Below are positions 29,201-32,651 of a stretch of DNA of 34,913 bases, one piece after another (the stretch's first letter is position 1; each line of letters opens with the position of its first letter). The stretch covers positions 1 through 34,913 of the forward strand of contig CAIOGZ010000001.1 of assembly GCA_903858015.1 (NCBI GenBank), given 5' to 3'. Under the pieces are notes generated by a model. That model was given only the letters and a program-made list of their open reading frames with translations, was not told the origin of the DNA and did not search any database. The DNA comes from an uncultured cyanobacterium. GTDB lineage: Bacteria > Cyanobacteriota > Cyanobacteriia > PCC-6307 > Cyanobiaceae. The translations under genes and the position numbers were made by a program.

Positions 29201-30052
29201 CTCACCCTGGTAGAAATCCCCGCCGGCAGCTTCCTGATGGGTTCCCCCCCGGAGGAACCCGAGCGTTCAGACGATGAAGGCCCCCAGCATGAGGTGACGC
29301 TGGAGAGCTTCTTCATCAGCCAAACGCCGATCACCCAGGCCCAATGGCGTGAGGTGGCGCTCTGGCAGGAGCGGCCGGGGGAACGGTGGGGCAGGCAGCT
29401 GGAAACGGATCCATCCGTATTCCAAAGCAAGCAGGGGCAAGACAACAACAAGCTGCGCTTATTGGAAGGCGAGAGCAAGACCGACCACCGGCCCGTGGAG
29501 CGGGTGAGCTGGGAGGATGCGATGGAGTTCTGCCACCGGCTCAGCCTGCGCAGCGGCCGCAGCTATACTTTGCCGAGCGAAGCCCAATGGGAATACGCTT
29601 GCCGAGCGGGAACAAAAACGCCCTTTTGTTTTGGCGATACGATCAGCCCGGAGCTGGCCAATTACGATGGCAATTATGCCTACGGGAATGCTGATGCTGA
29701 TGCCGATGGGCCCAAAGGGATCTACCGAGAGCAGACCACGCCCGTGGGGATGTTTCCAGCCAATGCCTGGGGCCTGCAGGATATGCACGGCAATGTGTAT
29801 GAATGGTGCCTGGATGAATGGCACGAAAACTACGAAGGAGCACCCATCGACGGAAAAGCCTGGTTGGATGCTACGGAAGGGGAAAAGAGTAATGAAATAG
29901 GAAATACCAGGCTGCTGCGCGGCGGCTCCTGGAACAACTTCCCCAGGAACTGCCGCTCGGCCTACCGCGGCCGCGATCGGCCCGGCGATGCCGACGACTT
30001 CGTCGGTTTCCGTGTGGTCTGCCTCCCCCAGGGCCCTTCCCTTAACCCTTAA
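26213..30052 (+). CDS. SAV_2336/vWA-like protein with seven WD40 repeats and a DGR-diversified FGE-fold domain
   Basis: This 1,279-residue fusion starts at GTG 26213. Domains in order: an N-terminal SAV_2336-like helical region (HEALLKLLEWRIELAG), a Pro-rich linker, a vWA-like Rossmann domain (about 195-310: PMVALRLVLDGGVSM, TVTLLLSDTAG; MIDAS-type D-x-x-x-S only), a helical region (about 395-580), seven WD40 repeats (675-965) with near-identical GDGRLASGS and IRLWDPASG motifs, and a C-terminal FGE-sulfatase/C-type-lectin-fold domain (about 995-1279). The last 43 residues are encoded by variable repeat VR1. Operon position makes it the sensor/vWA component of the MoxR triad; a diversified ligand-binding tip is the inference. 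Confidence 0.87.
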   Translation: MADHEALLKLLEWRIELAGPDADPLDSREIRDWLWLSAQLDGVQLPWQYTNKVRTTKASEEDQPSHPETTHASTPASSQDPRPEVRAPAPPDPHLATPFPAYPPAPEGAADPVARLLADNLLPDDAEVAEALQRRQGGVPLRVRQLDLLPYPLQILQALRPLLRRRPHPHWRVLDEERSAAKSAEMGLAWPVFRPRRVPMVALRLVLDGGVSMAVWEPLAKELQRVLASSQAFHRVDLQRLTPPDLPTRQLASGADDGTTVTLLLSDTAGRHWWDGSILPWLQTMANHHPLVVLHTLPLRYWESTALQRAPALTFRNYEPLAANSRYRPLLPLRDPWDDPGEPNSWPQPGGTCLPVISLDRRELGPWAALVMGETYARCAGRVLPVAEPQLLGRDEQPTPATAEINEEEAERLWQEFAQRASPEARELMLSIAASLFLTLPVLRLLQAVVAPQAFAPQPLAEVLVSGLVRRLPGQETVGATPDRLQFELVPALRRLLEPRLSPQRRRQVLAAVTDLLERHWDRQGSGSSFRALLLGPKEVLERDHPDLFHIANVTAAMLDQLPGTQFRELAAQLRGRKPVAPAPVWPGSMVFSDLEYESAQLLPISEPETISFGTARYADVDLHQISFETATVTGGVRQLDVNISRSSTWAFFERLASEGEKQWSNPAIAGGAPALEGHSAAVTVLAVLGDGRLASGSKDKAIRLWDPATGTCDRVFEGHQDWVMALAVLGDGRLASGSLDTTIRLWDPATGNCERVIEVHQGPVMALAVLGDGRLASGSIDKTIRLWDPASGACEHVFEGHQGWVMALAVLGDGRLASGSDDNSIRLWDPASGACERVFEGHQGWVNALAVLGDGRLASGSDDNSIRLWDPASSACERVVEGHQGVVRALAVMGDGRLAFGSGGFGGFRADKTIRLWDPVTGTCERIFEGHQGWVMALAVLGDGRLASGSDDNTIRLWDPASGESQTGLNNQPHKLNEVSVGLDGGLKNTAAPLSLTLVEIPAGSFLMGSPPEEPERSDDEGPQHEVTLESFFISQTPITQAQWREVALWQERPGERWGRQLETDPSVFQSKQGQDNNKLRLLEGESKTDHRPVERVSWEDAMEFCHRLSLRSGRSYTLPSEAQWEYACRAGTKTPFCFGDTISPELANYDGNYAYGNADADADGPKGIYREQTTPVGMFPANAWGLQDMHGNVYEWCLDEWHENYEGAPIDGKAWLDATEGEKSNEIGNTRLLRGGSWNNFPRNCRSAYRGRDRPGDADDFVGFRVVCLPQGPSLNP
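28235..29108 (+). repeat. Seven near-identical ~123-bp WD40-coding repeats
   Basis: Each unit carries a GCGGTGCTGGGCGATGGGCG-like block and an ATCCGGCTGTGGGATCC block. Divergence among units is low at the DNA level. The sixth unit has a seven-codon insertion (GGFGGFR). Low divergence indicates recent expansion or gene conversion. Confidence 0.9.
29912..30039 (+). repeat. DGR variable repeat VR1
   Basis: 128 bp collinear with the template repeat at 31318-31445. Codons 1-40 differ at 14 positions and every one is an adenine in the template (AAC to TTC, AAC to GGC, CAG to CGG and so on). The invariant 24-nt block at 30008-30031 behaves as an initiation-of-mutagenic-homing (IMH) region. Codon 41 differs by C to G as well as A to G, at the edge of homology. 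Encodes residues 1234-1276 of the host protein. Confidence 0.95.
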
Positions 30053-30125
30053 TCCATCAATTCCTAAACACTCGGCTGTTTCTTAACCCTGGCTGTTGGT
30101 TTGCGGCTGTTGGCTGTTCCCGGCT

Positions 30126-30140
30126 GGCGCCGCAGGCGCC
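30126..30140. other. GGCGCC-GCA-GGCGCC hairpin 87 bp after VR1
   Basis: A perfect 6-bp self-complementary stem with a three-base loop. The same element recurs at 32763-32777 after VR2, inside a duplicated 3' flank. It lies between convergent genes, so it may be a terminator or a DGR homing structure. No T-run follows. Confidence 0.6.
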
Positions 30141-30156
30141 TCGATTTACTCGCCCT

Positions 30157-31445: not shown

Positions 31446-31455
31446 GCCGTCAGAA

Positions 31456-31477
31456 CCGCTGGAAGGGATTCCAGCGG
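31456..31477. other. 9-bp perfect hairpin just after the TR
   Basis: CCGCTGGAA pairs with TTCCAGCGG around a GGGA loop, 10 bases past the TR end. No T-run follows, so it is not a standard intrinsic terminator. It may be part of the TR-RNA spacer structure used by DGRs to prime cDNA; that role is inference. Confidence 0.65.
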
Positions 31478-31628
31478 GCGCACCGGAAGGGTCACAGACC
31501 CGAGGGTCCAGACCCGCTCCAGTGATCGGCCGGTTCCGCCGGCTGATCCGCACAGCGCCGGGGGGTGCCCCGCCCGCCCATGGCCTAGCCATCGGCAGCG
31601 GATCCGCGCCCTTCTTTTCGCTGCAGCC

Positions 31629-32651
31629 ATGACAGCCACCACCAGCCGCACTGCCACCTTTCTGCTGCGCCAGCCGCGGCAGACGCAGGGGTTTCGTGAG
31701 GTGCTGCGGGGCTCGCCTTCAGGAGATGCATCCTTTGAGCGGTTGATCAGCGAGGCTGGAGATGCTGATCAGTTTTTTGCGCAAGAGTCTGCGCTTCAGG
31801 CGCAACCTTTAGCCCTCACCCTGCTCTGGATCCCACCCGGGCGTTTCTGGATGGGCTCGCCGCCAACGGAGCCGGAGCGCCGTGATTCAGAAAGCCCCCA
31901 GCACCTGGTGCAGCTGCAGGGTTTTTTCATGGGCCAAACGCCGATCACCCAGGCCCAGTGGCGCGAGGTGGCGCTCTGGCAGGAGCGGCCGGGGGAACGG
32001 TGGGGCAGGCAGCTGGAAACGGATCCCCCCTCCCGATTCCAAAGCAAGCAAGGGCAAGACAACAACAAGCTGCGCTTATTGGAAGGCGAAGCCAACACCG
32101 ACAACCGCCCTGTGGAGCGGGTGAGCTGGCTGGATGCGATCGAGTTTTGCAACCGCCTCAGCCAGCGCACTGGCCGCACCTACAGCTTGCCGAGCGAAGC
32201 CCAATGGGAATACGCCTGCCGGGCGGGCACCATCACACCGTTTCACTTCGGCGACACGATCAGCCCGGAGCTGGCCAATTACGATGGTAGGTATGCCTAT
32301 GGAGATGGGCCCAAAGGGATCAATCGAGAGCAGACCACGCCTGTGGGGATGTTTCCAGCCAATGCCTGGGGGCTTCAGGATATGCATGGCAATGTCTATG
32401 AATGGTGCCTGGATGAATGGCACGAAAGCTACGAAGGAGCACCCATCGACGGCCGAGCCTGGTTGGATGCTACGGAAGGGGAAAAGAGTAATGAAATAGG
32501 AAATACCAGGCTGCTGCGCGGCGGCTCCTGGAACTACTTCCCCGGGTACTGCCGCTCGGCCTTCCGCAACCTCAATCTGCCCGGCTTTGCCTACTACTTC
32601 GTCGGTTTCCGTGTGGTCTGCCTCCCCCAGGACCCTTCCCTCAACCCTTAA
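31629..32651 (+). CDS. FGE-sulfatase-fold DGR target protein 2
   Basis: This 340-residue protein has a short unassigned N-terminal region (about 1-50) and then an FGE/C-type-lectin-fold domain: LLWIPPGRFWMGSPP, GQTPITQAQWREVALW, RPVERVSWLDAIEFC, YSLPSEAQWEYACRAGT, VGMFPANAWGLQDMHGNVYEWC and GGSWNYFPGYCRSAFR...GFRVVCLP. Residues from about 295 onward are encoded by VR2. Long DNA blocks are nearly identical to the FGE part of the 1,279-residue protein, so the two arose by recent duplication. There is no effector domain and no signal peptide; it probably works as a stand-alone diversified binding protein or partner of the conflict operon. Start at ATG 31629. Confidence 0.88.
   Translation: MTATTSRTATFLLRQPRQTQGFREVLRGSPSGDASFERLISEAGDADQFFAQESALQAQPLALTLLWIPPGRFWMGSPPTEPERRDSESPQHLVQLQGFFMGQTPITQAQWREVALWQERPGERWGRQLETDPPSRFQSKQGQDNNKLRLLEGEANTDNRPVERVSWLDAIEFCNRLSQRTGRTYSLPSEAQWEYACRAGTITPFHFGDTISPELANYDGRYAYGDGPKGINREQTTPVGMFPANAWGLQDMHGNVYEWCLDEWHESYEGAPIDGRAWLDATEGEKSNEIGNTRLLRGGSWNYFPGYCRSAFRNLNLPGFAYYFVGFRVVCLPQDPSLNP
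32511..32638 (+). repeat. DGR variable repeat VR2
   Basis: 128 bp collinear with the TR. Codons 1-40 carry 16 differences, all at template adenines (for example AAC to TAC or TTC, AAT to TTT, CAC to CTC). The 24-nt IMH-like block is at 32607-32630. Codon 41 is GAC against CAC in the TR, a C to G difference shared with VR1. Six substituted bases (codons 10, 25, 30 and 32) are shared with VR1. Confidence 0.95.

Follow-up and report, generated by a model that had tools for sequence, protein, structure and literature searches.

The closest described relatives of the locus reported here are the diversity-generating retroelements (DGRs) of BPP-1, of Thiohalocapsa PB-PSB1 and of surveyed cyanobacteria. 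For the BPP-1 DGR, the accessible sections of two papers (PMC3240598, Guo 2011; PMC12875486) describe adenine-specific change between a template repeat (TR) and a variable repeat (VR), an error-prone reverse transcriptase (RT) together with Avd, an end of the initiation of mutagenic homing (IMH) kind, an inverted repeat 3' of the VR and a structured RNA beside the TR. Here we analyse 34,913 nucleotides from an uncultured cyanobacterium of the family Cyanobiaceae (GenBank assembly GCA_903858015.1, contig CAIOGZ010000001.1, positions 1 to 34,913 of the forward strand; the whole stretch is called the window), which carry an intact TR, named TR_A, beside a broken Avd-RT operon. With about as much confidence as doubt, we regard the window as an RT-less, non-autonomous DGR whose six targets were likely written from TR_A, and whose template is now likely usable only in trans, by an intact RT and Avd on another contig.

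Judged against those sections on BPP-1, the locus shares the adenine change between TR and VR, the IMH-like end, the downstream inverted repeat and a structured element at the TR, and it differs in its avd-RT-TR order, in the position of the structured element 3' of the TR, in its six targets and in its broken local RT. For Thiohalocapsa PB-PSB1, the available part of Doré et al. 2024 (PMC10907252) infers trans diversification of targets whose sequence fits a template at a different locus (DGR 2), and explains two disrupted loci by cells with intact variants or by writing before the disruption. Several loci, some of them incomplete, and C-type-lectin ends on MoxR-associated or NACHT conflict-type proteins are common to both cases; however, the trans case there concerns targets, whereas here an RT-less template is in question and the clear RT-less case is found in a relative. 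A cyanobacterial survey (Vallota-Eastman et al. 2020, PMC7517822) reports, in its available part, C-terminal C-type-lectin domains on signalling and effector proteins and many remote targets; lectin-ended targets of these types and remote VRs are also found here. The same part terms DGRs absent from Synechococcus and Prochlorococcus. In contrast, near-full-length RTs of this kind occur in 9/400 family genomes, including the window's, with Cyanobium and one Synechococcus-named genome among them, and templates are found apart from an RT. A search of titles and abstract beginnings, with subscription papers mostly outside it, found no literature on RT-less DGR templates.

One template and six targets

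All window features described here lie on the + strand. TR_A (31318..31445) aligns without gaps over 128 nt with VR1 (29912..30039) and VR2 (32511..32638), as an earlier reading made from the letters alone (the sequence-only reading) had stated, and base-by-base alignment bears out its claim that the 14 differences of VR1 and the 16 of VR2 in codons 1-40 each fall on a TR adenine. We compared TR_A over 31318-31435 (118 nt), in which 26/118 sites are A. Within this range VR1 has 14 A-site and 0 non-A-site differences and VR2 has 16 and 0; the chance that all differences hit the 26 A sites is 1.9e-11 for VR1 and 2.3e-13 for VR2. The further claim, made for codons 1-40, that no other base changes holds for these first 118 nt; over the full 128 nt both VRs share one such change (C121 to G), and VR1 additionally differs from the TR at A122. 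The block of 24 nt at the 3' end (positions 97-120) is indeed the same in TR, VR1 and VR2. Position 121 is C in 7/7 TR_A and G in 19/19 listed TR_A-type VRs from seven genomes, a list that leaves out two decayed VRs (C27:2623 and G025 C9:52706; G numbers denote genomes and C numbers contigs). Because G121 is found in all 19 listed VRs, C121/G is a fixed TR/VR difference of the IMH*/IMH type, in agreement with the IMH-like VR end that had been proposed.

The sequence-only reading counted two targets for this template, a number that turned out too low. The window's genome (G000) is a 3.84 Mb draft in 100 contigs, rated 99.93% complete, and searching it with the TR gave 21 matches, six of which are VRs of TR_A spread over four contigs (C1:29912, C1:32511, C95:15508, C20:4373, C20:6697 and C27:982). 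Taken together, these six differ from the TR at adenines in 98/98 cases and at 0 of 6 x 92 = 552 other sites. C27:2623, a decayed seventh match, has 15 A and 8 non-A differences. About 300 nt ahead of the VRs, the 15 target pairs differ by 9-38%, the VR1 and VR2 genes being alike in their flanks (9% different), while 0/91 non-A sites within the VRs differ in any of the 15 pairs. Since the flanks diverge and the non-A sites of the VRs stay identical, the comparison argues that the VRs are homogenised through copying from a single template.

The same pattern is seen in public databases. Among 73 homologues (72 distinct) that carry a TR_A-type VR in register, drawn from the best 120 of 6728, variation within codons 8-31 is 52-95% at the 15 codons that have an A in the first two positions and 0-11% at the remaining nine; the search pattern itself fixed codons 1-7 and 32-40, which are uninformative on variation.

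A broken Avd-RT operon beside an intact template

The TR and VR set of the predicted DGR stands, but the complete locus does not: Avd and RT survive as remains without a catalytic core, which the sequence-only reading did not mention. The avd remains (30802..30933) comprise the N-terminal part only, fused into the start of the RT, and match PF22296 with E=0.0011, below the curated cut-off. The RT_A remains (30895..31298) consist of N- and C-terminal pieces, the core with its YVDD being deleted and a 7-nt frameshift deletion lying ahead of the core loss. With tblastn, RT_A residues 9-26, 22-52 and 255-358 are found 5' of the TR in two frames, and alignment to relatives resolves the damage into an Avd-to-RT deletion, the 7-nt frameshift deletion and the loss of the RT core. 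Neither a working RT nor a working Avd was found within the window, and the locus has no functional RT; nor was an intact RT_A found in the assembly.

The relatives used for comparison include Cyanobium sp. FGCU6 (G029), Cyanobium sp. Cruz CV13-4-11 (G025), Cyanobium LBMAG epi.bin3 (G024), Microcystis elabens FACHB-917 (G002), a LacPavin metagenome-assembled genome (G001) and Synechococcus sp. Tobar12-5m-g (G106). An RT lies directly 5' of the TR in 5/5 other TR_A loci (G024, G029, G002, G025 and G106), and a sixth TR_A relative (G296 C157), missed by the TR scan pattern, also has its RT. The RT of G024 has an open frame (353 aa), and the Avd there carries an internal deletion. The deleted product of the window falls into a 90%-identity cluster, P0121, of 2 sequences on 11 public contigs, the window's own among them. 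An assembly artefact is unlikely as the source of the RT deletion, given that spread over 11 public contigs.

Core loss may reach beyond this locus. Among the best 120 of 142 public RT relatives, Y[VL]DD is missing in 11, one of which (P0222) reads YFDD, leaving 10 without the motif. Six RT_A-like clusters (P0195, P0196, P0197, P0201, P0203 and P0206) lack the YVDD stretch and have RYV or RFV joined to GFVV. From their sequences, these six look like carriers of the same deletion, which suggests that the RT core has been lost repeatedly or that its loss is spreading.

The signals around the template are kept. Directly ahead of the TR lies a GGGCGGGTCGCGCAG box (31303..31317), and a GGGCGGGTCG..CAG box right before the TR is recognisable in 17/17 TRs compared. 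Just 3' of the TR, a stem of 9 bp with a 4-nt loop (31456..31477) shows covariation in 19 TR flanks of the A and B types, where 98.2% of cells are paired and five pairs changed on both sides. The covariation score was reached by 0/500 shuffles and the count of further pair types by 24/500, in shuffles that ignore relatedness; sliding the partner lowers pairing to 24-57%. These flanks show a TR-flank hairpin common to both DGR types. The case is one of covariation, as the stand-alone fold of the flank is weak (z-score -1.24), and Rfam at gathering scores had no match in the window. The window's stem has the same sequence as that of three B2-type TRs, the RT-less type described below (G000 C95, G029 and G030 C85), and RT_B's own TR has two stem bases unlike it.

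On the target side, a GGCGCC-GCA-GGCGCC inverted repeat lies 76 nt past the start of the stop codon of target gene 1 (30126..30140), where it is a candidate DGR target hairpin or cruciform, and a second lies 3' of target gene 2 (32763..32777). Such a repeat follows all six TR_A targets, perfect in 4 and imperfect in 2. The genome holds 12 GGCGCC-GNA-GGCGCC sites, 11 of them after VR genes and one in a P450-like open reading frame (ORF). The hairpins of phage DGR targets, as described in the available sections of PMC3240598, have stems of 7-10 bp and 4-nt GRNA loops and lie 4-34 bp after the VR; the repeats here (15 nt, with a 3-nt GNA loop, 51-132 nt past the stop codon) resemble them, though their loop is shorter and they lie farther off.

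Possible writing in trans or before the deletion

The genome does possess an intact DGR-type RT. RT_B (C26:12808-14013) is 402 aa long, scores 64.9 bits against PF00078 and has both YVDD and LPIGNLTSQ, the latter of which we take to be a mark of DGR RTs; its best match in the PDB is 8ub7 'Reverse transcriptase' (E=1e-42), presumably the BPP-1 DGR RT. It is 64-67% identical to three aligned RT_A proteins. The same contig, C26, carries a complete Avd_B (PF22296, 76 bits), a TR of its own and a NACHT/FGE target, which shows 13 differences at A sites and none elsewhere. We rejected the template of RT_B as source of the six VRs, because over 118 nt these agree with TR_A at all non-A positions; in ungapped comparison TR_B (C26:12778) differs from TR_A at 44/128 sites, 34 of them non-A in TR_A, a count inflated by a length difference near the end. 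Avd, broken at the window's locus, is intact on C26 and also on C18, which holds a third, intact Avd. In the C18 cassette (L024:6178-7396), the RT is cut at the YV of YVDD and fused into the 3' end of a TR remnant.

Templates without an RT recur in relatives. Our TR scan, which left out stretches from G057 and G090 and 80 further loci, found 16 full-length TRs: 9 with an RT directly upstream, the window's with remains, and 6 without an RT trace within 1.5 kb upstream. Two of these six (G001 and G024) have RT_B 4-5 kb off on the same contig; in both, the TR adjoining RT_B is without its 5' part, and it is the TR 4-5 kb distant that the VRs fit. Matches to the 3' part of the TR, such as those in G117 and G342, gave no TR by the scan pattern. 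Modules of a target and a TR with no adjacent RT (type B2) are present in six genomes, and the number of non-A differences between TR and VR is 0 in G296, 0 and 1 in G001, and 2 and 2 in G024 (at the same two TR-private sites). Over 2-2.8 kb, the modules of G029, G030 and G296 have a similarity of 77-86%, and their RT-less state is therefore likely ancestral. As a separate observation, a strongly decayed RT-less TR stands beside a VR gene at a contig end in the window's genome (G000 C48:83780-84020) and is an example of what an unused template looks like.

The clearest evidence for writing in trans comes from G296. Its VR on C75 has 12 A and 0 non-A differences from its RT-less TR, and this TR carries five bases that are private relative to the homologous modules of G029 and G030, 5/5 of which are present in the VR. 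No RT match was found on C75, an 82-kb contig, both RT matches of G296 being on other contigs. Since the private TR bases are all in the VR and the contig is without an RT match, the sequences imply that this RT-less template was written in trans.

For the window itself, T66 is private to its TR among five aligned TR_A and is present in 6/6 VRs; because all six carry this private base, the alignment argues that they were written on the window's own lineage. In addition, 0 changes are seen at ~175 synonymous VR sites, and this, assuming the synonymous rate of the RT remains, roughly dates the last writing to the final ~20% of the branch that begins at the split from G024. The private substitutions of the TR on this branch number just 2 over 118 nt, so that it was conserved for most of that time. 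We could speculate, with somewhat more doubt than belief, that in Cyanobium-type DGRs one or two RT/Avd sources have become separate from a set of non-autonomous template cassettes with no more than their own 5' box and 3' stem, that RT core deletions recur, and that TR_A belongs to these cassettes and is written in trans by a paralogue of RT_A. In our main reading, writing would proceed by mutagenic retrohoming: RNA from the TR would be copied with errors at adenines, the cDNA would replace the VRs up to a boundary before position 121, and the downstream inverted repeat would help to mark the targets; that RT_B acts on TR_A today is the least certain step.

Several observations weigh against continued writing in trans, and with them an alternative has to be considered, namely that the window's own RT_A wrote the six VRs before its deletion, none having been written since, and that the TR is a recent fossil. 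We lean against this alternative but take it as a serious, if tentative, one. One point in its favour is position 96, where the TR has GGA and all six VRs have GGT: A96 is found in 0/6 VRs, and elsewhere the VRs follow their TR at this position in 13/13 listed cases from six genomes (a decayed G025 VR off this list, C9:52706, does not follow it). A96 is better read as a substitution that the TR acquired once the VRs had last been written than as diversification of the VRs; uniformity of a site is by itself not decisive, because a second site, 74, is uniform too (G in 6/6 VRs).

The loss of RT_A may also be recent, because its remains show no clear relaxation (6 non-synonymous and 7 synonymous changes on this branch, without clear amino-acid excess) and because a public intact RT with YVDD, P0161, is identical to them at 91/94 positions, so that RT_A may have been lost later than the VRs were last written; the branch substitutions are too few to date the RT loss against the last writing from these remains. 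Moreover, RT-less templates are not all kept in use, because the B2 modules of G029, G030 and the window's own genome (C95) differ between TR and VR at 7, 9 and 10 non-A sites, respectively. G030 has RT_B and G029 only RT_A, and the C95 VR, misfitting the RT-less TR beside it, is a better fit to the TR of RT_B (3 non-A), an RT that is present in the genome. Nor does the fresh look of a VR prove present writing. For the third VR type (on C18, C88 and elsewhere), the assembly yielded the 3' remnant of a template and no complete copy. Of five such VRs compared with a related TR of G296, three have 2-3 non-A differences, one has 7 and one, with a shift of register, 18; freshness is no proof of activity because three of these VRs look nearly fresh although their template is a 3' remnant only. 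A remote target of T. denticola SP32 has been interpreted as the leftover of a lost DGR, going by the available part of PMC4891356.

The spectrum of bases written at adenines does not separate RT_A from RT_B as the writer. Other TR_A VRs are richer in G (versus T) than TR_B VRs (Fisher p=0.006; p=0.04 at the level of VRs), and the window's genome lies in between (p=0.08 versus other TR_A, 0.40 versus TR_B), in a comparison that included the decayed VRs C27:2623 and G025 C9:52706. What speaks against a fossil is the case of G296, at least one relative in which trans writing of an RT-less template has taken place, together with the conservation of the window's TR over most of the branch and the late last writing that the unchanged synonymous VR sites suggest.

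It is unlikely, in our judgement, that cells with an intact RT_A, at the same or an unassembled locus, do the writing, the sequenced strain carrying a deletion variant of recent date. For PB-PSB1, the available part of PMC10907252 reports that intact variants of two disrupted loci were found and offers writing by such cells, or before the disruption, as explanation; the nearly identical P0161 shows that a close intact RT exists, and the genome is a draft in many contigs; however, the high completeness rating of an assembly in which no intact RT_A was found stands against it, and the spread of cluster P0121 speaks against an error of a single assembly. Finally, ordinary gene conversion or divergent duplication of paralogous FGE genes without any DGR, for which the paralogy of the targets and the similar VR1 and VR2 flanks could be cited, is practically untenable and already contradicted by the strict confinement of differences to TR adenines, by flanks that diverge where VR non-A sites do not, and by the codon pattern of the public homologues.

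If RT-less templates are written in trans, the unit of a DGR would be a template with its flanking RNA element and not the cassette, one enzyme could diversify several independent receptor families, and repertoires could be gained or lost via short templates. With the natural deletions and the G296 module, the question of trans-acting DGR enzymes can be put to a direct test. Moreover, the sensor-like targets described below sit in a group close to genera that the available part of the survey reports as free of DGRs (PMC7517822).

Target proteins and neighbouring genes

The FGE/C-type-lectin fold that the sequence-only reading proposed for the targets is supported, the VRs terminating PF03781 domains. 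Target gene 1 (26213..30052, 1279 aa) encodes an N-terminal part, seven WD40 repeats (PF00400) and a C-terminal FGE-sulfatase/C-type-lectin domain (PF03781) with the VR1 end, and target gene 2 (31629..32651, 340 aa) an FGE-sulfatase/C-type-lectin domain with the VR2 end. Target 2 matches the T. denticola variable protein 2y3c in sequence (E=4e-16); its AlphaFold model (pLDDT 45) was not used. By Pfam, the domains ahead of FGE in the six targets are TIR in two, RES in one and WD40 repeats in one, and the remaining two have the FGE domain only. VRs of the other template types in the genome are found on NACHT, TIR-nSTAND1 and caspase proteins, among others. Several targets look like sensors of infection or of self-killing. 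A RES-domain protein (C20:5434-6837) and a caspase-domain protein (C88:6084-8321) each end in a VR-bearing FGE domain.

Immediately 5' of target gene 1 lie a TIR/VMAP-C gene (23208-25079) and an AAA gene (24997-26220), together spanning 23208..26220; the AAA gene is MoxR-like in our own reading, and the two are neighbours like those of ternary conflict systems. Further upstream, a third FGE gene (21548-22537, 329 aa) has a VR-like C-terminus with a weak TR match, and is perhaps an undiversified or long-silent target. Two direct repeats of 198 nt (20526-20723 and 21282-21479), 94% identical and in adjoining ORFs, are a partial gene duplication. At the other end of the window, a second relic cassette, more strongly deleted than the first, consists of the TR 5' flank and the first TR bases (33377..33412), after avd-like and RT-end-like bits. 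Directly 3' of it lies a TIR-domain gene with a long Glu/Arg-rich repeat stretch (33498-34913), cut by the contig end.

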